64,000 nucleotides of DNA from Malus domestica (Eukaryota; Streptophyta; Magnoliopsida; Rosales; Rosaceae): contig NC_091672.1 in the NCBI RefSeq assembly GCF_042453785.1, positions 3,440,001 to 3,504,000 of the forward strand. Direction: 5' to 3'. This document shows positions 6,301 to 64,000 of this stretch, one piece after another; position 1 is the first letter of the stretch, and each line of letters starts with the position of its first letter. Below the pieces are notes generated by a model. That model did no database searches. It saw only the letters and a program-made list of their open reading frames with translations, and was not told where the DNA came from. The position numbers were made by a program, and so were the translations under genes.

Positions 6301-8023
6301 TAAACCCTTCACAATTAATGAGAACTCTTCTATTCTGTGGACGTAGCCAATCTGGGTGAACCACGTACATCTTGTGTTTGCTTTCCTATCTCTATCCATT
6401 TATATACTTATCCACACTAATGACCGGAGCAATCTAGCGAAGATCACAAAAAGCGACCGTTTTCGCTACCTAGGATCTATCTTGCAAGAGAACGGAGAAT
6501 TAGATGGAGATCTCAACCATAGAATACGAGCTGGATGGATGAAGTGTAAGAGTGCATCCGGCGTGTTGTGTGACCGTCGTAGGCCACTGAAGCTCAAGGG
6601 AAAATTTTATAGGACGGCAATAAGGCCAGCGATGTTGTATGGCACAGAATGTTGGGCGGTGAAGCATCAACACGTACACAAAATGGGTGTAGCGGAGATG
6701 AGGATGCTTCGTGGGATGTGTGGGCACACGAGAAAGGATAAGATTGGGAATGAGGATATCCGAGGTAAAGTAGGAGTAGCCGAAATTGTAGGAAAGATGA
6801 GAGAAAATCGGCTCCGATGATTTGGACATGTGCAAAGAAAGCCGACTGACGCTCCGGTTCGAAGATGTGACTACGGGACAGAGGTTCAGGGCCAAAGGGG
6901 TAGAGGAAGACCTAGGAAAACTTTGGAAGAGACTCTAAGAAAAGACTTAGAGTACTTGGATCTAACGGAGGACATGACACAAAACCGAGCGCAATGGCGT
7001 TCTAGGATTCATATAGCCGACCCCACTTAGTGGGAAAAGGCTTTGTTGTTGTTGTTGTTGTTGTTGTACTCTCACCAGATAACATAGGCCACCAATTGTT
7101 GTACAATGCACAAGCCTGCCACACATTAAAGGAAATAATCATAATAACAAACAGTAAATGAGTAAGCATATAATACACTTGAGATCCAATTGGCAGTTAA
7201 ATTCAAAACCTTTCCCTCCCTTAATCTGGTGATATATCACCATTATTGTCGGTAGAGCAAGTGATACAATAGCCCTTTTCAGAAGGAAGGGCAACTTCAA
7301 CAACACCGTGCCACTAGGGTTCTATAACTTTTTCATGGTAACAAGCTACATGGCCATCTATATCAACAAAAGAAGAGAAAGAAAATCTAATCCACACAAG
7401 AATTATTGATTGCTGTAATAAAACATCAATGCACAAATGGCCTCTTACTACTTCAACATCAGTAAACAAACCGAGGAACCAATCTACAAAATCCTTCCAA
7501 CTCCAATGTGAGCAGGTAACATGAAGAATACTCATCAATCTGCTTTCTGTTCCTAACTTTCTTCCAGGGAATTATTCCAGATTCTAGCTTAACTTTTCTT
7601 CGAAAGAGGGTTACTAAAAAATGTGAACAGTGATATGCCAACTGCTTAATGACCCACATTAGAAGAGAAGTTGAGCTAAGAAAAAGCACACCGCTACTGA
7701 ATTCAAAAAGTATGATGATTGATGAAGATAAAAGCGTGCGTGTGTGAGTGTGGGCCTTATTCTTGATACAAACAGCATATTTTTAAGGGAGAGTATGCAT
7801 GACATAATAGAATACTAGGTTATAACTGCAATTGGACAGACACATATACCTGTAGGCCTTGGAGTACAAGGCAAACACCTCTCAAGATAATTTAGAGCAT
7901 TTAACAACCACAAGCTCACAACCAGTCAAGCCATTAAAAAATAAATAAAAATATAAATAAAAGAAAAATACCAGGATTTGTAACAAGATGCTTGCTGAAA
8001 ACATAAAAGCAAGTCCTGCAAGC
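332..8023 (-). CDS. VPS55: VPS55-like endosomal membrane protein (four 3' coding exons; first coding exon not found)
   Basis: Four exons on the minus strand join in phase: 8023-7972, 7115-7076, 1593-1509 and 515-332. They encode [30 protein letters not shown], then a segment with [10 protein letters not shown], then [20 protein letters not shown] and the C-terminus, about 120 residues. This matches the VPS55/OB-RGRP family (plant members about 140 aa, four membrane spans), which acts in late-endosome to vacuole sorting with VPS68. The [11 protein letters not shown] and [11 protein letters not shown] blocks are nearly diagnostic. All four joins use GT-AG and agree in phase. The expected first exon (about 16 codons, ending two bases into a codon) was not located between 8024 and about 8960, so the gene may be incomplete or have a diverged N-terminus. 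Intron 3 carries a 5.4-kb insertion, and the last intron carries LINE and SINE fragments. The C-terminal tail HRASLEDEW is not one I know from the family. Confidence 0.82.
725..1011 (+). mobile_element. Truncated RTE-type LINE 3' fragment
   Basis: A degenerate copy of the LINE 3' region, related to 1767-2318 and 6417-7066: it retains the stretch for LRWFGHV, the Arg/Gly-rich segment, and the end cacttagtgggataaggctt followed by a degenerate TTG/TGG tail. It is flanked by 13-bp direct repeats tgtgttaaaagga (712-724 and 1012-1024), which mark its target site. It lies inside the last intron of the VPS55-like gene. It is badly decayed and 5' truncated. Confidence 0.8.
1196..1270 (-). mobile_element. 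3' fragment of an Au-like SINE
   Basis: Read on the minus strand, the segment has the order seen at the 3' end of plant Au SINEs: GCCGACATTC, CTCTCCCAGACCCTGCG, GCGGGAGCCTTGTGCACTGG, then GGGTACGACC. The tRNA-like 5' half with A and B boxes is missing, so this is a truncated copy. Family assignment is from memory. Confidence 0.6.
1308..1402. repeat. Short degenerate tandem repeat
   Basis: Four to five degenerate copies of a unit of about 16 to 20 bp around atcatggcacacaagt. It lies in the last intron of the VPS55-like gene and shows no coding content. Confidence 0.6.
1695..2316 (+). mobile_element. RTE LINE, internally deleted copy (5' leader joined to RT C-terminus)
   Basis: The LINE 5' leader (1695 to about 1758) is followed directly by the C-terminal part of the reverse transcriptase ORF (1767-2318, 183 aa, open). 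The protein has the family landmarks [13 protein letters not shown]-like at its start, [35 protein letters not shown] and [11 protein letters not shown], ending IHIADPTQ. The endonuclease and catalytic RT core are absent. It stops near the LINE stop codon, where the LTR-type derivative starts. Confidence 0.8.
2579..3259 (-). CDS. Antisense ORF in LTR-type derivative, 226-aa coiled-coil protein of unknown function
   Basis: An open frame of 226 codons on the strand opposite to the LTR-like right end. The N-terminus has [18 protein letters not shown], with FDLNL resembling an EAR-type motif by inspection only. Residues about 100 to 150 ([18 protein letters not shown] through [19 protein letters not shown]) have heptad spacing typical of a coiled coil. 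The last 70 residues are a Pro/Ser-rich tail with a unit repeated about three times around [11 protein letters not shown] recall closely similar hypothetical proteins as multi-copy entries in Rosaceae proteomes, but no function. It could be a captured host gene or an accessory ORF of the element. Nothing in it resembles gag or pol. Confidence 0.5.
   Translation of the reverse strand: MKMSGPSDRRFDLNLVEEAAPPSPDNIWRPSFVSPTGPLTVGDSVMKNDMTAAVVARNLLTPKDNRLLSKRSDELAVKDSLALSVQCAGSVSNMAQRLFARTRQVESLAAEVMSLKQEIRGLKHENKQLHRLAHDYATNMKRKLDQMKETDGQVLLDHQRFVGLFQRHLLPSSSGAVPRNEAPNDQPLMPPPSRVLSSTEALNDPPPVPSLSGALPTAETSPKQPL
3392..3676. repeat. 65-bp tandem repeat
   Basis: Units beginning tcagaaatcgaagaggc recur at 3416, 3481, 3546 and 3611, a 65-bp period, with a shorter first copy at 3392. 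A further copy of the unit is seen near 4460-4530 inside the second copy of the 915-bp repeat. Confidence 0.85.
3540..5100. repeat. 915-bp direct repeat with an internal 218-bp repeat
   Basis: The block with gctcatgggtaccacagata (3773) recurs at 4688, an offset of 915 bp, and similarity extends over most of the period. Within it, the block with aacatgcccaacctttactc is found near 4032, 4250 and 4947; the first two are offset by 218 bp. Apparent ORFs of about 67 to 98 codons on either strand here are repeat copies in different frames and not genes. Confidence 0.8.
6417..7066 (+). mobile_element. RTE LINE 3' half with (TTG)n tail
   Basis: Encodes the RT C-terminal region starting around [15 protein letters not shown]. 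It runs to HIADPT and the stop at about 7028, followed by cacttagtgggaaaaggctt and a TTG microsatellite (about 7044-7066) that is the LINE tail. The ORF is split by an in-frame stop near 6818 (RLR then stop, where the other copy has RLRWFGHV). It abuts the 16-bp target repeat at 7067. Confidence 0.85.
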
Positions 8024-52799: not shown

Positions 52800-53650
52800 A
52801 TGTCAAACCCATTGAAATGGAGTAATTTAGTTTTTAGTTACAACATATAGCAGCGTGTGATTGACTTGGTCTACTGCCAGATTTCCATGTTTATAGAAGT
52901 TTTTCGTCTGCACTCTATCCAATTTTGCGTAATTTATCTTTACCAACTAAAGAATTGTACACATTTCTTATTATATTTGGCTGTTTCATTCCCTAGTGAC
53001 ACCCGAGTTGTTAAGGGAAGGCACTTCCCTTCGTATCGCTTCATCTCCTTCAATGTAGAATGAAAAAATTGAAAGAAGAAAGATCATGGACACTTGCATT
53101 ACCAAGATATTAAAGTTTGATACAGTTATTTCAACACTATTCATGTCAATGTGACAATTTTTTAGTAACTTACTCTACATGCCAATCCACATATCGCTTT
53201 TACAGAAATTTCTCTCCATTATCCTAGCCATTAAAGTCAACCTTAAAGTGATGCAAATAATAATGTGGTCTTACACTGAACAATTGCAGAAACCGTACGT
53301 TACATTGTTGGGTTAGGGAGGGCTAGCTGTGGTTTAGTTGAGTGAATAAAGAGAATAAAACTTGCTTAGTTAGCTGATTGCCCTTTTGACTATAATTATA
53401 CTAATCTTAAATAAAATCCAACTTCCTTCTTCTGCATAATATTCATCAAAGGATAAAAGTGCATAAAGTCTCCTATCCACTCCTCCTGAACAACGTATTA
53501 TTTATATAATATTATATTCCTTGAAGTGGTTACACCTTGATCCATTTGGCAGGTAAAATCTCTTCCCCTGCTCTTCTATCAAAAAAAAAAAAAAAAAAAA
53601 ATTGTAATTGAAAATTGAAATTGACTAATTTTAATTAATAAACTAATTAA
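52800..53650. other. Intergenic DNA upstream of CASP copy 1
   Basis: The part from about 53390 on (ataaaatccaacttccttct, then ttgaagtggttacaccttga) is shared with 62385-62640 upstream of the second CASP gene, so the duplicated unit includes the promoter. Confidence 0.65.
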
Positions 53651-53670
53651 ACTCTTATTATTTGGTGCAC

Positions 53671-53679
53671 TATATAAAG
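53671..53679 (+). promoter_or_regulatory. TATA box of CASP copy 1
   Basis: gcactatataaagc, 124 bp before the ATG; the same box in the same context is present at copy 2. Confidence 0.75.
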
Positions 53680-53794
53680 CTTATCATGTGTGAACCATTT
53701 TCATCACAAGCTTTTGAGTCTCTTCTCCTCAACAATTCCCATTTCCAAAGCTTCAGTGTTCTGTTTTATCATCTCTATCTCTCTCTCTGTGAAA

Positions 53795-54834
53795 ATGAAG
53801 AGTGGCGGCGACTCGACCACCATTGATGTTGAGGCAAGAAGTCCTTCCAAAGGAAAAGGGCCTGTTCTGGCAGTTCATCATGTGAAGGAAGAAAAGGGAG
53901 GAATGAAGAGAGGGATGGCCATAATCGACTTGGTATTGAGGATTGGTGCTATAGTGGCTGCTCTTGCTGCTGCTGCCACCATGGGAACCAGTGATCAAAA
54001 CCTTCCTTTCTTCACCCAGTTCTTCCAATTTGAAGCTAGCTATGATGACATGCCTAGCTTTCAGTATGTTCCCATTTTCCTTCCGCTTCTTTTTCCATTT
54101 GGTGATAATTTCACAAAAGAAAATGTTTTATGATATTATGATATTCTGGTATGTTACATTGTCAAATCATTAATCTAGATTATTGAACAAATGAACTATT
54201 ATGTCTTGTTTTTGGTTAATAGTCTAACATGTTACGTTGTCAGACTGTCAATCTGAATCGTTAATAAGATGATGGTAACAGAATGATAATTTAACAACGT
54301 AACATTTTGGATGTTTGAAAAGGACAACATTACCCTTGCGTACTGTACGGTACATTGATCTAATATCCATGCATGCATGCAGGTTTTTCCTAATAGCAAT
54401 GTCAATTGTAGCTGGCTACTTGGTGCTCTCACTTCCCTTCTCCATCGTCTCCATCGTTCGCCCCCATGCAAGTGGACCAAGGCTCTTGCTCCTCATCCTT
54501 GACCTTGTAATTACATTCCTAACCTCTCTATGATTCATGATTAGCTCGTAATAGTCATACATTGTTAATCTGATTATAATTAACTTGATTGAAATTGTGA
54601 TATATATCATGACAGGTGGCACTGACTCTAGCCACTTCTGCTGCTGGGGCTGCAACATCCATAGTCTACCTAGCCCACAATGGCAATGCAAGCTCCAACT
54701 GGCTAGCCATCTGCAACCAGTTTGGTGATTTCTGCCGGAACGTGAGTGGGGCTGTGGTGGCTTCCTTCGTTACTGTCGTCACCTTCATGTTCTTGATTCT
54801 GCTCTCTGCTTTGGCTCTCCGAAAGCATCACTGA
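53795..54834 (+). CDS. CASP: Casparian strip membrane domain protein (CASP), copy 1
   Basis: Exons 53795-54063, 54383-54506 and 54616-54834 (GT-AG) give 203 aa. The N-terminus has the STTIDV motif and a charged cytosolic segment, then four membrane spans near [54 protein letters not shown] and [20 protein letters not shown]. The first extracellular loop carries the CASP signature [17 protein letters not shown]; the second has the conserved Cys pair ([12 protein letters not shown]). The Arg in span 1 and Asp in span 3 typical of the family are present. CASPs form the endodermal membrane scaffold that directs peroxidase-dependent lignin deposition in the Casparian strip; root endodermal expression under MYB36 is expected from the family. 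The start at MKSGGDS follows a CT-rich leader. Confidence 0.93.
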
Positions 54835-55600
54835 CAAGAAGAAGAAGATGGAAGGGATTAATTAAAGATATCTTCCAATTTGTTATTGTTAACGCTGTTT
54901 GTGATTTTGTTTTGGTGTTTTCTGCAAAACTACTCCTTTAATTGTTGCGCGAATTTGGTTATAGTTCATGTAACCCATGGAAAATTTCGTAATGAAATTT
55001 ATTGCTATTATAATTTCTTACTCTAGTTTACCTTAACCTTCCTCTCCTCGGAACACATGTATGCAGAATGACTTTTTTTGAAAAGTGTCGATAACAATTT
55101 TCAAAGTTTTTTCATTTTTTTGGATGACAATCTTTACACAACATGAAATAAAACTCGAACTTAACATGAACGAGTGGATTAGGTAAGTTGATTAGATACG
55201 GTACTTAGACTCATACCCATAAGTAACATGACCTATAAATACTAATACATGAATTATTCGATTTTGACATGACCCATTTAACCACCTTTTTTGTTATGAC
55301 TGTTAATTTGATTTAGAAATATAATGACAACTTGTCATAAGTTCTTAATTAACTAAAACATACTACGGGAAACATAAGCTTATAGCTCAAGTGACAAAGG
55401 CCCGTTTCCAAATGTTTTATTAAAAACAACTTAGGCTTAGAAGCATTTTTATTCCTCTATAAGAAACATATAAAAAATTAAATCACTTTTAAGTTTTTGT
55501 CACCAAACATGATCGGAAACGCTTTTAATTATTTTAAAAGTAGTTTTAAAATGGGCCAAAGAGCACTCATGCATTTGAAGAACATTTATCTTTTTACTTA
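54835..55600. other. 3' region of CASP copy 1 and intergenic DNA
   Basis: Likely 3' UTR with aatgaaat signal near 54991. After this AT-rich DNA without a gene; 55380-55560 resembles degraded MITE text. Confidence 0.5.
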
Positions 55601-55602
55601 GG

Positions 55603-55700
55603 CTTAATTGTACCAATGGTCTCTAAACTTTATCGTAATTTTTAGTTTAGTCCATGAACTTCTATATTAGTTGTTTCAATCCTCCAAATTAACCATCTAT
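55603..55700 (+). repeat. Dispersed repeat arm, inverted partner at 62140-62380
   Basis: ttaggcttaattgtaccaat then ggtctctaaactttatcgta then tagtttagtccatgaacttc. The same text, diverged, lies in inverse orientation near 62140-62210 plus 62365-62380. Confidence 0.55.
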
Positions 55701-56399
55701 TGCGCCATTAGTTATTTTCACTAACACAGTCTATTTTTCCATAAATCTAGAGTTCAATTAGGAATTTCAACTTAGGAGTTTAAAAAAATAAATAAAACAA
55801 TATAAAAGTAACAGTCCCATTTCTGAGGAATATTTGAGAGATCATGGGTAGGGCCCGCCCCATATCTTCCCTTATAGATTTTTTTCTACAAAATCATTCA
55901 AATCCGAAATCATTTTACCGTTGGATTAAATGATAGTCATATTAGGGTTTCTTTAAACAACTGTATTCATTTATTTTTTTTCACTAAAACTAAATGTATT
56001 AATGGTTCTGAATTGTCTATTTTTTCAATGATGATATATGAATAATGTATAAAAATACAGACGATTTGAATTGTTGAAAAAAATTACAGAACAAGGACCG
56101 CAAAATGTCGCTCAAATAAATATTATTTGAGGATCCCTCAACAGAAGAGGACTCTAGAACATTAACAAACAAAATGAAAATTAAAACAACATGAAAAATG
56201 GACCATAAGAGCAACTTCAGTGTAGGAGCCCTCCTCCCAGGCTATTCACTAGTTAATCCATCCAATGAATAGTAACTGCCCTTAATAAACAGTAATTTCC
56301 GTGACAATTGCCTTTTGCATCTCCACCCCTGCACTGAATAGCCTTGGAAATTGGTAATAAAATATTATTATTATTATTTTTATTTATAAAATAATACAT

Positions 56400-56800
56400 A
56401 ATAATTTTATTTGTAATTTCAGATAAGATTTTTAATCGTTCTCGTTGCGTCACGTGTCATTTTCTAAAAAGCCAATAGCAATAAAATATTTGTATTTTTT
56501 TATTTATAAAATAATTCAAAATAATTTTATTTGTAATTTCGGATAAGATTTTTAATCGTTCTCGTTGCGCCATGTGTCATTATCCGCAAAGACAATTATT
56601 GGTGATGGATTTCCGATAAGATTTTTAATCGTTGTCGTTGCGCCACGTGTCATTATCTGAAAAGACAATTATTGGTGATGGATTTCCGATAATATTTTTA
56701 ACCAATCACGTCGTGCCACGTGTTATAATCTGATTACAATCTTTGAGGCTAGATTTCCACCAGATTTTTAACGAATGACAGCATGCCACGTGGCATTATC
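56400..56800. repeat. Subterminal repeats of the Harbinger element
   Basis: About five degenerate units containing gataagatttttaatcgttc, then cgttgcgccacgtgtcatta, with periods near 70 to 115 bp. Such arrays are often transposase-binding regions. Confidence 0.8.
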
Positions 56801-56913
56801 TACAACCTAATCCTTTCTGAATCCTCCATATAATCCACCATCCATCCTCAGAAATCTCACACCAATTTCTCAAGAGCTCTATCATTATTCATAGTTTTTG
56901 CTTCCTTCTTACA

Positions 56914-58326
56914 ATGTCTTCTTCTTCTACAAAGATGATGTGGGAAATTGATCAAGAAGAGGAAGAATTATTTAACCAATCAGATGGAATGTTCAATGCC
57001 GATGATTGGGCCCAAAATGAGATGGAAGAGGATGACGAGCATAGACGGAGAGATGACGAATCAAGAATGGCAGGAGCTTCACACTCCTGTCGAGTCATCC
57101 AAGCTGCGGCTCATATCTGCAGGCCCAACCGTGCTGTAAACATTGATAGAAACAAGCGACGACGAGGTGAGGAGCTCTTGGACGATTATTTTGTCCGTAA
57201 AAGTGCATTCCCTGATACGTACTTCCGACGTCGTTTTAGAATGGAACGACATTTGTTCAACAAAATCATGGGCGTTGTTTGCAACCATGATTCTTACTTT
57301 GTGCAAAAGCTGGATGCTTTTGGTGCTATGGGTCTTTTGCCTGAGCAAAAAATTACTGATGCCTTGAGGATACTTGCATATAGAGTATCTGCAGACCAAG
57401 TGGATGAGATAATGAGGATGGGAAAAATAACCATTCTTGAGTCCCTGATGAGGTTTTGCTCGGCAATTGAATCTATCTACACCACAGAGTACCTCCGGAG
57501 ACCTACTCATATGGACTTGGAAAGGCTTCTGAAGAAGGGCGAGATGCGAGGTTTTCCAGGGATGATTGGAAGCATTGATTGTATACACTGGACTTGGAAA
57601 AACTGTCCAAGTGTATGGCAAGGCGCTTATGGGGATAGAAAATGATAAAAAAGTATCATTTTGGAGGCGGTGGCATCTTTTGATACATGGATTTGGCACG
57701 CCTTTTTCGGGGTTTCGGGAGCTCAAAATGATCTCAATGTCCTTACCCAATCCCCAGTGTTCAACGAAGTCCTACAAGGAAAGGCACAAAAAGTCACATA
57801 CTGGGTCAATGGACATAAGTACGACGGGCCATACTACCTAGCAGACGGCATTTACCCAAGGTGGGAATCGTTTGTCAAAATAGTGCCACGTCCAAGAAGT
57901 GCAAAGGAAAAATACTTTGCAAGCTGTCAAGAAGGATGCAGGAAAGATGTGGAGCGTTGTTTTGGTATACTCCAAGCTCGCTGGGCTATTGTTAGGGGTG
58001 CTGCCAGAATGTTTGATATAGAGTCGCTTCGATCCATCATGATGATGTGCATCATTCTTCACAACATGATTGTGGAAGATGAGTACGATTATGATGCCGT
58101 TGATAAATATGAGTCAGACACGATGAACAATTCTAGAACACAAATATATTGTGCTCATGATGCCACCGAAGAACCCGCGCAACACGAGCCATTACAAAGG
58201 GATAGATGTTGCAATGATAGGGTCATTCAACGATATACTGCTCTTCAAAGGCCATATATGCACAATGCCTGCCAAATTGACTTGATAGAGCACCAGTGGG
58301 AATTAAAGGGTGCTGAAGATACTTAA
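56914..58326 (+). CDS. PIF/Harbinger DDE transposase with two adjacent in-frame stops
   Basis: One frame runs from 56914 to 58326 (about 470 codons), interrupted only by TGA TAA at 57643-57648, just after WQGAYGDRK. The N-terminal part has the helix-turn-helix-like region FRRRFRMERHLFNKIMGVV and TDALRILAYRVSADQVDEIM. DDE motifs: first Asp in GSIDCIHWTW (residue about 222), second Asp in YYLADGIYP, Glu in RKDVERCFGILQARWAI. HNMIVEDE follows, as in DDE_Tnp_4 family proteins. The start MSSSSTKMMWEIDQEEEEL is acidic. A short intron at the interruption is not supported, since the frame is the same on both sides and no GT-AG pair is obvious. Confidence 0.9.
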
Positions 58327-58329
58327 GTT

Positions 58330-58760
58330 CATTAGTGTGTTGTTTTTATTTGATGTGTTTATTTTATTTTATGTGGTGTGTTTTTTTAGTTCATTTAGTG
58401 AGTTGAAATGTAATTTTGGTATGTTGATGTAATTTTATTTGGTGTGTTTTTTTGGTGTCTTGATGTAATTTATTTGGTGTCTTGATGTAATTTTATTTGG
58501 TGTTTGTTTTTATTTGGTGTGTTTTTTTGGTGTGTTGATGTTATTTTATTTGCAGTGTTTAAATGTGTTTTGAATAAAGTACTAAATTAAATAAATTGGA
58601 AACAACATAAAGTACTAAATTCAATAAATAACCAAATTAAATAAATACACTCTTAGTTTAAATAAAGTACTAAATTCAATAAATTGGAAACAACATAAAG
58701 TACTCTATTCAATGAATAAGAAATTACAACCCGAATAAGAAATTACAACCCGAATTGATT
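58330..58760. repeat. Tandem repeats between transposase and ORF1
   Basis: Degenerate tgatgtaattttatttggtg units (58410-58560), then two copies of a block with ttcaataaattggaaacaac and ataaagtacta (58600-58710). Likely the shared 3' region of the two convergent genes. Confidence 0.75.
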
Positions 58761-58766
58761 GGAAAA

Positions 58767-59993
58767 TTATGGGTTCGTGAATGGATAATCATCACCTAAC
58801 CAATTTGTCGTGCTAGGAAGATCTTCTTTTGTCGTGCTAGGATGATCTTCTGTTGTCGTGCTAGGACCATCTCCTCTTAATCTCACTTCTCTTGCACGCC
58901 TCATTCGCATCACGTCCGCTTTCTCCGACTTCCAAAAATATTTAGAGTTTGGAAACTTCCCTTCTAAAGGCTCCTTCATAATGTTACGATCTTGTTCAGC
59001 CATTCTTTTTTCTCTTCTATGTTCCCTTTCTGCTGAAATAGTTCTCTTTCTCTCTCATCAGCTTCAAATTTTTTCTCAAAAGCTGTAGCTTTTGCATCCT
59101 CTCTAGCCTTATCAACCTCAAATTTTGCCATTTCCCGGGCCAAAGTCAATTCACCTTGGTGGGCAAGGTCTTCCATATACTTTGCATAATCTTTCTTGGA
59201 ACCATTACCTTTTCTTTTTTAAGCCTTCTTACCTTGAGGCCTAATTGGAAAACGGGTCAACCCCGATGCTTGTTCAACGGGGGGCGTTTCAGACACTTCT
59301 TCTGCATCATCTTCATCATGATCATGCGAGGCATGATCGGGTGTAGAGTGTACTGTTCATGAAAACTTATGGACCGACAGACACAATTCTGAATTTAAGA
59401 CAATCTTTGACAATATTCCAACATTCAAACCGGGTGAATGTTTTGTTTTTGCTTTTGGTTTTGGCACCATACTAAGCTTGTGCTTGAAGTTCCTACACAA
59501 TGCGGAGGATAAATAATTATAATGATAATAGGTAACAAATAAATAATACAAACAAATAATTATAATGAAAGTAGCTAACAAATAAATAATACAAACAAAT
59601 AATTATAATTATAATGAAAGTAGCTAACAAATAAATAATACAAACAAATAATTATAATGAAAGTAGCTAACAATTAAATAATACAAACAAATAAATAATA
59701 TATTGTTACCTGATTCGCTAAATTTTCCCCACTTCAAAGATTACCACTAGCTTGTGCCAAGGCGTCTCTCCACGTACTAAACGCTTGGCTAAGTAATTTC
59801 CAACGACCGGACATCGATTTTTTAGTTCTTAGCCCACCCATTTTCTCAAGACAATTGGTATGAATAAGACTCCACATTTCTCACAACTGCATCTCGTTAC
59901 CCGTAAGCGAATCACGAGTAACTTGAACCCAGCTAGTACACAACGCAACATCTTTAAGAAGCGTTCAATTCGTACCTGCTTGAGTAGTCATTT
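58767..59993 (-). pseudogene. Harbinger ORF1 (trihelix/SANT-like DNA-binding protein), decayed
   Basis: Minus strand. First exon about 59993-59710: MTTQAGTN, then LLKDVALCTSWVQVTRDSLT, EMWSLIHTNCLEKMGG, MSGRWKLLSQAFSTWRDA, the trihelix/Myb-like domain of PIF ORF1. A gtaaca donor and an acceptor near 59494 bound an intron filled with tandem repeats. Second part: TFTRFECWNIVKDCLKF, later a Lys/Glu-rich coiled coil (LAREMAKFEVDKAREDAKAT) and a C-terminus PLEGKFPNSKYFWKSEKADV. In-frame stops replace conserved residues at several sites (for example TN then stop in the first exon and after RPQGKKA), and a frameshift splits the coiled coil near 59020. Confidence 0.75.
59498..59700. repeat. About 50-bp AT-rich tandem repeat
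   Basis: Four units of ataattataatgaaagtagc then taacaaataaataatacaaa. It lies inside the ORF1 intron. Confidence 0.85.
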
Positions 59994-61018
59994 TGTTGGA
60001 AAAAAAAATTGGATTCAAACTTTGAGAGAAAGATAGGAATGTGGTTGAAAGTAATTGAGAAAATATGAAATTGTGGTGTAAGGTAGAAGATAATGAGAAG
60101 GTATTTATAGAAAAGTAAAATCAAATTTTTTTATAATTTTTCATAATTGTTTTTTCGGATTTTAAAGAATTTTTTACATTTTAAAAAAAAAATTATTCAC
60201 CTAATTAATCTCTGCCATTGGATTTATAAAAAAAAATTGAATTTCAACACTCCAAATTGTGCCATGTGGCACAACGGTAACATTTTAGAATTTTTAACTT
60301 TTTTTTTTTAATTTACAAAGCCTAATAACGTGGACCGTTGATCTTAGATCAAACGGATGAAATTAAATGACAATTTTTAAATGTTTTTTACCGTTGGAAA
60401 TCCAACGGTCCATAAAATAAGGCCGTTGCAATCGAATGAACATGGGGAAGCCACGTGGCTTCCCCAACGGTAACTTTTCAAAACAGGCGTTGTGGGCCCC
60501 ATCGTTGTTTTTTTGTCGGAAGACACGCGCCTGACGCAGCCCGAGAGCCTGTAGGCTGGCAATCCACGCCGGGCCTGCTCCTCGGGCCTCGCCTGTCACT
60601 CGAGCTTCCCAACGCTGGAGCCTATCCCCCTAGCAATTTGCTCCTATTTGAAAGCCTGGCCCCCGAGCAACCTCCCCCACTAGAGTTGCTCTAAGAAAAC
60701 AAAATAAAATGGTTGGACTTTTGCAACATTAAAATACTATGCAACGAACTTTGAAGTTGGTATGAGATCGAATTGAGGTTAGACTTTAGCAACTAACAAA
60801 CCACAATTCTAATCTTTAGTGTTTAGGGTTTAGCAACTAACAAACTCCTAGATTAACAACATAATATGTTTATTTCATGGTTTATACAAAAAAAATTTCG
60901 TTGTGTTTTGTCCAACAATATGAATTTTTTTTTTCTTTGCATAAAATATAAGTTTGTGAAAGATGTTCCGTACACATTTTTTGTAGGGGTTGAGATGAAA
61001 TTCTAATTTTCATACAGG

Positions 61019-61990
61019 GAGACCTGACATTCGTGTCGTATTTTTTATGTTCGTGTTGTTTTTGTGACATACCCGATATCTTAACGGGTTGTATCGTATA
61101 ATACCCGTTAAAGTAAACGGGTAATATGATCCAACCCGAAATCGACCCATTAACATTATCAGGTAATATGACTCAACCCGTTACTTGTTAAAGAAAATAA
61201 ATTTTAAATCAATAAATAATGAAAATGAAAAACATAATTTGGCAAAAAAAAAAATAATAGAAAAGATAATACTAAATTAATATATGCATACCAAATTGTC
61301 ACATAAATATTATTCCAAAACATAAAAAAAAACATTTATTTGTCAAGTATTACGTACTCCAAAATAAGAGTCTAATGAAAAAATATTAGTATATTACTAC
61401 AAAACACCAAATGTTAAGGATATACAAAATGAAGAGAGTTGTGTTTCAAGGTTGAGGAACCTTGCACGTTTATATATGCTTTCATATTAAACTTGTACAT
61501 TAATGATTATTAATTTTATTTATTTTGAACTCCCTTAAAAACACTATTCATGAGCCTTTGCATATTTTTTCACATTTTTTGCACTTGTAAAATAATTATT
61601 ATAATTTTTTTAATGTGCTTTGTATTTTTAAATTACTTGATATTTTTATTTTTAATGTGTTTTATAGTTTTTTTTAATTACACTCTTTGCTTATAGCATA
61701 CTATAAAAATAAATAAACAAAACTTTAATTTTTTAAATATGTACAAAATAATAATACAATAATACATATAGTCAGTTTTTTTAGTAGTTTAAAAAATTAA
61801 AATAATCAAAATAATTTTTTTCATATCGTGTCGTAACGGGTTTCCGCGTGTTATCTTTGTGTATACCTGTTAATGACGCGTTATTAATGGGTTCTTATTG
61901 TGTGACCTGATAACGGTCCGATTAGTTATCATGTTGATCCAAAACCCGATATTTTCGTGTTGTTTATATGTCGTGTTAACGGATCGCGTA
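61019..61990. mobile_element. hAT-like element, degraded
   Basis: The left end gagacctgacattcgtgtcg resembles the end of the hAT element at 9602 (tagacctggcatt). Both flanks are rich in aacgggt/acccgtt motifs (61080-61190 and 61815-61985). The interior is very AT-rich with no ORF. The right boundary and target duplication were not resolved. Confidence 0.45.
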
Positions 61991-62139
61991 AGAAATTATC
62001 AGCTTAAATATATACTTAATTTCGGCCTTTTACGTTTTATCATACATTTTTCATCATACATTTTTCAGGCTTTGTATATTGGTCCACCCACAGGTGAGAT
62101 CTTGGTTCCGACCCTGAGTATAAGACATAATTAAATTAA

Positions 62140-62385
62140 CTAATAAAGCAATTAATATAGGAGTTCAGGACTAAAATTACACTCGAAGTAGAATTCAAAG
62201 ACCATTGGTGGTGCAAGGGGATACACCACGTGTTTTTATGTAAGTGATAGGAAACTTTATTATTTAAGTTATTAATTTTTTAACACACATATCCTATCAT
62301 TGTATAATGACACGTGGTATACCACCCTGTGTTTCAATCACATCGAAAAATCTAGCCATTGGTGCAATTAAACCTTTGACCTGAA
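62140..62385 (-). repeat. Dispersed repeat arm, inverted partner of 55603-55700
   Basis: Minus-strand text ggtttaattgcaccaatgg, then tctttgaattctacttcg and agtcctgaactcctatatta, split by the MITE at 62211-62355. Confidence 0.5.
62211..62355. mobile_element. 145-bp Mutator-type MITE
   Basis: Nine-base target duplication ccattggtg (62202-62210 and 62356-62364). Inverted stretches caaggggatacaccacgtgt and cacgtggtataccaccctg lie at or near the ends. Confidence 0.65.
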
Positions 62386-62765
62386 TTATAATAATCTTTG
62401 ATAAAATCCAACTTCTCTCTTCTGCATTATATCTTGAAAAGCTAAAGTGCCCTATGATATAATAAAAACGACCAAGTAAACCACTCCATTACACCCATTT
62501 GATCTTTCATGGAATGCCACAAAGTTTCCTATAATCCGTCCTCCTTAATTAAAACCATATTATTTAGAACTTTATGTGTACGTAGTTTGCATATAATATT
62601 GAAGTGGTTACTACTTGATCCATTTGCCAGATAAAACCTCGTCATTTGCTCTATAGAAAAAGTCTAACATTAGCAACTCTTCTTGCTTCCCATTAACCGA
62701 TTAATTTACAATTAAAATTTGTTCCATGACAAGTTTAAATAAACTATCTTCTTATTTGCTGCACT

Positions 62766-62774
62766 ATATAAAGG
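62766..62774 (+). promoter_or_regulatory. TATA box of CASP copy 2
   Basis: gcactatataaagg, 139 bp before the ATG, in the same context as copy 1. Confidence 0.75.
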
Positions 62775-62904
62775 TTCTCATATTTAACCATTTTCATCAC
62801 AAGCTTTTGAATCTCTTCTCTTCAGCAATTTCTACTCACCTAGCTACAAAGCTTTAGTTTTCCTCCTCATTCCTCTTTAATTCTCTCTCTCTCTCTGTAC
62901 GAAA

Positions 62905-63935
62905 ATGAAGAGCAGCGGCGACTCGACCACCATTGATGTTGTTGCTCACGAGGGAAGTGGTACATCCAAAGGGAAAGGGCCCATTCTGATGGTTCCTGTA
63001 AAGGAAGGAAAAGGTGGAATGAAGAGAGGGATGGCCATAATTGACTTGGTTTTGAGGAGTGGTGCTATAGTGTCTGCTCTTGCTGCTGCTGCGACCATGG
63101 GAACCAGTGATCAAAACCTTCCCTTCTTCACCCAGTTCTTCCAGTTTGAAGCTAGCTATGATGACATGCCTAGTTTTCAGTATGTTTCAATCCTCCTTTC
63201 AATATTTGGTATGTTACATTGTTAGAATGTCTCTAGATCATCGAATAACTGAACTATTGTATATAGTGTAAGACTGGCAATTTGACATATTATGTTGTCA
63301 AACTGTCAATTTGAATAATTGATCAGAAGAGATGAAGCCAGATTAACAATTTAATTACGTAAAAATTCCAAATGTCTGAGAAAGACGACACTACCCTTGT
63401 ATATTGTACGAAACGTTGATACAAATATCCATGCATGCAGGTTTTTCCTGATAGCAATGTCACTTGTAGCGGGATACTTGGTGCTCTCAATTCCCTTTGC
63501 CATAGTCTCCATTGTTCGCCCCCATGCAAGTGGACCAAGGCTCTTGCTCCTCATCCTTGACGTTGTAATTATAATTCTACCCTCTCTAACTTCATTAATT
63601 TAAAGCTTATATGGTAACCATTTCGTTTTATTATTATTATTTTTTTTTTTTTTTGAAAACTCACAAAAGTGGCTTTCCTAATCCGCGCATAATACTTGTA
63701 TATATGATCACGACAGGTGGCACTGACTCTAGCCACTTCTGCTGCTGGGGCTGCAACATCCATAGTCTACCTAGCCCACAATGGCAATGCAAGCTCCAAC
63801 TGGCTAGCCATCTGCAACCAGTTTGGTGATTTCTGCCGGAACGTGAGTGGGGCTGTGGTGGCTTCCTTCGTTACTGTCGTCACCTTCATGTTCTTGATTC
63901 TGCTCTCTGCTTTGGCTCTCCGAAAGCATCACTGA
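62905..63935 (+). CDS. CASP: Casparian strip membrane domain protein (CASP), copy 2
   Basis: Exons 62905-63179, 63441-63564 and 63717-63935 (GT-AG, same phases as copy 1) give 205 aa. The structure and all CASP landmarks are those of copy 1: STTIDV, span-1 Arg ([18 protein letters not shown]), loop 1 [17 protein letters not shown], span-3 Asp, loop-2 Cys pair. Differences sit in the N-terminal cytosolic part ([23 protein letters not shown]) and in exon 2 (about 10 of 124 bases). Exon 3 is identical to copy 1 over all 219 bases and about 20 bases beyond. The 3' UTR is cut by the window end. Confidence 0.93.
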
Positions 63936-64000
63936 CAAGAAGAAGAAGATGGAAGAGAATAATTAAAGCTCTTCAAACAATTAATTGCAAACGTTGTTGT

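Follow-up and report, generated by a model that had tools for sequence, protein, structure and literature searches.

An exon-sized block of identity in a tandem pair of CASP genes points to recent interlocus gene conversion

How can two neighbouring genes share a last exon that is the same at every base when the DNA on either side of that exon has diverged deeply? The question is raised by two genes of the CASP type, the root-barrier proteins of plants, that lie in tandem on the + strand of a 64,000-nucleotide stretch of DNA, here called the window (positions 3440001-3504000 of contig C12, in an assembly of 651 Mb and 19 contigs). Both genes, referred to below as copies a and b, are complete and consist of three exons, the limits of which were set by hand from the reading frame and the splice sites (Table 1). 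Matched against the PF04535 profile, for which the Pfam cut-off is 26.2, the whole proteins score 161.3 bits (1.8e-47) for copy a and 155 bits (1.6e-45) for copy b, and as regards the distinction between true CASP and CASP-like proteins, which turns on a signature in the extracellular loop and on localisation to the endodermal strip, we take their loop, by its look, to be of the CASP type.

Table 1. Coordinates, in the window, of the two CASP genes, the block that they share and the flanks of copy a
Feature	Position	Strand	Details
Copy a, whole gene	53795-54834	+	203 residues
Copy a, exon 1	53795-54063	+	269 bp; reading frame, GT/AG splice sites
Copy a, exon 2	54383-54506	+	124 bases; reading frame and splice sites
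Copy a, exon 3	54616-54834	+	219 bases; inside putative conversion tract
Copy a, putative conversion tract	54611-54854	+	244 bp, same as in b; Ks 0 (exons 1+2: 0.255)
Copy a, 5' flank, putative part of old duplicated unit	53385-53794	+	aligned with 62375-62904; p_ab 0.287, 373 columns; repeat families D8-D11
Copy a, 3' flank past the tract, putative part of old duplicated unit	54855-55250	+	aligned from 54835, 378 columns
Copy b, whole gene	62905-63935	+	205 residues
Copy b, exon 1	62905-63179	+	275 bp; reading frame and splice sites
Copy b, exon 2	63441-63564	+	reading frame and splice sites
Copy b, exon 3	63717-63935	+	inside putative conversion tract
Copy b, putative conversion tract	63712-63955	+	244 bp, identical to a

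A sequence-only reading of the window had described exon 3 as the same in the two genes at every base, with identity ending about 20 bp past the stop codon, and the alignment bears this out: all 219 of 219 exon bases are equal, and the exact run takes in 5 bp of intron 2, the exon and 20 bp beyond the stop. Its description of the remainder of the genes, with about 10 differences among the 124 bases of exon 2 (mostly in the first two thirds), indels in exon 1, and difficulty in aligning intron 2 and most of the 3' UTR, was also accurate. We count 10 of 124 differences in exon 2, nine of them within the first 73 bases, the first exons differ in length and contain coding indels, and the a-b distance (p_ab) is 0.378 in intron 2 (98 gap-free columns) and 0.267 in the 3' flank (378 columns, a figure that takes in the end of the tract); gap columns were excluded from every site count. 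In sliding windows of 60 gap-free columns, p_ab runs from 0.28 to 0.50 in intron 2, drops to 0.00 in exon 3 and returns to 0.20-0.33 in the first windows past the tract. Synonymous divergence between a and b (Ks, Nei-Gojobori) is 0.283 in exon 1, 0.208 in exon 2 and 0 in exon 3, or 0.255 for exons 1 and 2 together as compared to 0 over the 56.7 synonymous sites of exon 3. Elsewhere in the alignment, a and b agree over at most 48 columns in succession (gap columns skipped), and among the five matches to exon 3 found across the assembly, a and b stand at 100% and the next, on contig C14, at 95%. A sharply bounded stretch over which paralogs are unusually alike is one of the marks by which interlocus gene conversion is recognised, and the locus presents such a stretch.

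Chance is rejected as the cause of this identity. At the synonymous rate of exons 1 and 2, the probability of zero changes in exon 3 is ~1e-6, and Fisher P values of 3e-5 and 5.7e-4 accompany the fall in a-b Ks to 0 and the divergence of exon 3 from the C14 copy described below. When the 276 polymorphic columns were shuffled 100,000 times, no shuffle gave the 13 successive a=b columns that are observed, and with coding columns only, 56 in number, one shuffle in 100,000 matched the observed run of 11.

A control on the silent sites is provided by copy c, the single copy found on C14 (L008 4472-5505), which lies outside the window, within a segment collinear with C12. Of the 219 sites in its exon 3, 11 differ from a and the same 11 from b, and 10 of these differences are synonymous (56.3 sites), giving an exon-3 Ks of 0.203 for both a-c and b-c; the corresponding Ka, 0.006 for a-c, indicates a strongly conserved protein. 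The sequence-only reading had judged it unlikely that selection had fixed the synonymous sites, and had named invariance of these sites in related species as an observation that would count against conversion. The C14 homoeolog can stand in for a second species, and in it the silent sites are seen to vary; because c carries synonymous differences in exon 3, silent sites there can change and constraint fails to explain the identity of a and b. Silent sites in the tract that have been free to diverge in a relative are a second mark of interlocus gene conversion. Selection that acts at the level of DNA or RNA and holds exon 3 invariant down to its synonymous sites would be in keeping with the strong conservation of the exon 3 protein, but it has to contend both with the changes in c and with an a/b identity that extends beyond the coding sequence into the intron and the 3' UTR; this explanation is contradicted by the C14 copy, was rejected, and appears to us improbable in the extreme. 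As a separate observation, 48 bases late in exon 2 (window 54456-54503 and the counterpart in b) are the same in a, b and c, a length that is too short for a second tract to be called.

It might also be supposed that the block was created in the computer, the exon 3 copies having been collapsed or made alike by short-read polishing, and a length of 244 bp is indeed about that of a short read. Against such an artefact, the two copies differ in the bases adjoining the block, and strongly so in the flanks, which ties each of them to surroundings of its own; moreover, about 12 synonymous differences would be expected in exon 3 at the rate of exons 1 and 2 and, if kept, would make the mixing of reads unlikely. 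We consider an assembly artefact very improbable.

The age of the pair relative to that of the block bears on a third mark of conversion, namely paralogs that are older than the tract between them. On the non-coding 5' side (707 columns from the 5' flank and the two introns) p_ab is 0.297, p_ac 0.157 and p_bc 0.281, and on the non-coding 3' side (378 columns) the same distances are 0.267, 0.296 and 0.201, the last of these being above the other homoeolog figures. For these comparisons the far 3' flank, which an insertion in b had caused to be misplaced in the first global alignment, was realigned without the insertion and the "down" rows were dropped. Collinear C12/C14 DNA outside the duplicated unit differs by 0.101 over 13,721 aligned bases in 12 blocks (range 0.069-0.145; hits were kept by a coordinate filter, and those outside it, e.g., 69447-70922, are uncounted), and the figures for three further CASP pairs on other contigs, presumed to be homoeologous, are 0.114-0.135, both sets being mixtures of coding and non-coding DNA. 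Because the non-coding divergence of a and b around the block (27-30%) exceeds that between homoeologs (10-20%), the split between a and b most likely predates the chromosome duplication. The paralogs, with a non-coding p_ab of 0.27-0.30 and the exon 1+2 Ks given above, are older than the tract: zero changes at ~82 silent sites (the synonymous sites of exon 3 plus 25 of intron or UTR) put the upper 95% limit of divergence at d = 0.036, and since this lies below the 0.11-0.23 seen between homoeologs, the homogenisation would be much younger than the duplication. Judged from these distances, the most likely history is that of a pair already in place before the chromosome duplication, with the homogenisation of exon 3 as a later event.

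A history without conversion would require a young tandem duplication followed by very unequal evolution outside exon 3. In a first outgroup tree of exons 1 and 2, which included badly aligned N-terminal columns, a and b did group together at 84% of 200 bootstraps, a result that speaks against both a split before the duplication and the hybrid reading of copy c that is taken up below; in addition, the outgroup comparison places most lineage-specific coding changes on b, and part of the a-b distance may thus reflect a faster rate in that copy. With exon 1 trimmed (first 133 alignment columns dropped), the AU values are 0.17 for a+b, 0.49 for a+c and 0.67 for b+c, none of which is rejected. The outgroups in both trees were three distant loci of little weight, one on C3 and two copies on C10 that look broken. 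A young duplication would, however, need a fast b on the 5' side and a fast a on the 3' side, with neither fast in exon 3. In relative-rate comparisons of three sequences only (a, b and c), with a root that rests on the clock, equal rates are rejected under a young duplication (5' P 7e-11, 3' P 1.5e-4) but not when the pair is older than the chromosome duplication (P 0.23 and 0.17). On these tests the young duplication with unequal rates was rejected, and we hold it very unlikely to be correct. The two C10 copies (L009 and L010, at ~1.400 and 1.443 Mb) are CASP genes ~42 kb apart, apparently broken by a stop or indels within exons, and they match each other in two blocks that are 83% and 91% alike.

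An old tandem pair that underwent recent interlocus gene conversion across exon 3 is the explanation that we consider highly probable on the sequence comparisons at hand. It is also the one proposed by the sequence-only reading, and it fits the sharp edges of the block, its deeply diverged flanks and the silent sites that vary in c. One copy would have suffered a break within or close to exon 3, and its repair from the other copy, with or without a crossover, would have replaced a tract of ~244 bp or more; a single tract, rather than several, would have made the block. We infer this repair mechanism, the single tract and the recency of the event from the pattern of identity. Exon 3 is a plausible site, since the longest stretch over which the copies stay nearly alike is to be expected in its conserved coding sequence. 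As to the direction of the transfer, the exon-3 Ks to c of both copies is nearer to the exon 1+2 value for b-c (0.212) than to that for a-c (0.081), a weak hint that b may have been the donor, with too few sites to make a claim.

Unequal crossing over between tandem repeats makes hybrid genes, and copy c has the appearance of such a gene: it is a-like as far as intron 2 and b-like past the stop. Sites at which a=c or b=c divide 166:54 to the left of the break and 25:62 to its right. In a one-break model with 307 informative columns, the best break falls at 54876/54879 (2-lnL interval 54599-54880), and its likelihood ratio of 57.5 was reached in 0 of 2000 shuffles (columns treated as independent); the break can be placed no more finely than this interval because exon 3 now has no a/b differences. 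The C14 gene is flanked by a's flank upstream and b's flank downstream, collinear C12/C14 blocks are present on both sides, and window positions 55236-62521 match nothing in the 27 kb of C14 that was compared. An affinity switch inside a gene, together with absence of the intervening DNA, is the expected signature of a hybrid, and it suggests that a separate unequal crossover at about exon 3 fused two copies into c and removed the DNA between them, an event of which we are less sure than of the conversion. A single such crossover would jointly explain the single C14 gene, the switch and the flanks. The likeness to known hybrid genes extends to the one gene with an a-like 5' part, a b-like 3' part and unmatched intervening DNA; the difference is that the parental arrangement on C14 is only surmised. 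It is possible, and we put it forward tentatively, that exon 3 is a recurrent recombination site, having served after the genome duplication as the crossover point on one homoeolog and, independently, as the site of the conversion tract on the other.

Conversion between tandem genes is well known in plants. A survey that covers plant tandem duplicates (PMC6383267) reports conversion in 20.6% of tandem pairs in Arabidopsis and 23.0% in rice, the most often converted class, and there, as probably here, a tandem pair is homogenised by non-reciprocal exchange; the present case differs in having one exon-sized tract against strongly diverged flanks, with the homoeolog as an internal control. In pear, a related kind of genome if the present plant is apple-like, 56 tandem pairs are reported as converted in PMC5816897, a study that used whole genes in quartets with apple and could miss a one-exon tract. 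It also lists Chr 3/11 and 5/10 as syntenic pairs; the related CASP loci on C3 and C11 and the collinearity of C12 with C14 are in keeping with a genome of the apple or pear kind, presumably Malus. Literature searches, at the level of titles and abstract openings, turned up no report on this CASP pair. A common process is here illustrated by a clear new example, and nothing about it is unusual apart from what may be a second event in exon 3 on the homoeolog. A date taken from exon 3 by itself would make the pair brand new, whereas the other parts of the gene speak for a split before the chromosome duplication, and this serves as a warning that plant tandem duplicates should not be dated from a single exon. 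If the hybrid reading of copy c is true, the two homoeologs offer for comparison different outcomes of recombination at a single exon.

Other CASP clusters in the assembly were compared at the level of blocks and give no gauge of the frequency of one-exon tracts. Self blastn of a tandem pair on C11 (L042, C11 29978001-29984000; two PF04535 matches) yields a 1.9-kb block at 91%, that of a pair on C13 yields matches over ~0.6 kb and 43 bp, and that of a cluster on C16 yields no direct repeat. The DNA between the two CASP genes of the window contains a repeat (56204 to about 58300) that is found on many contigs, including elsewhere on C14, with at least 47 matches counting itself (40 of 2348 candidates scored). 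Two transposase-like ORFs in it match Plant_tran, one of them also DDE_Tnp_4, and the repeat is presumably Harbinger-like; a search of window positions 56000-59800 for terminal inverted repeats of 20 nt or more found none. Near the start of the window, positions 1763-2302 and 6447-7017 both match C14 3091464-3092031 (94% and 93%) out of collinear order, and these stretches are probably a repeat. Finally, the 3' flank of b just past the window contains an element of ~350 bp (L007 3207-3560, C12 3504207-3504560) that resembles a miniature transposon: its terminal inverted repeats, 51 nt in length, are imperfect (71% complementary), and it has at least 39 other matches at 93-96% (40 of 2248 candidates scored).
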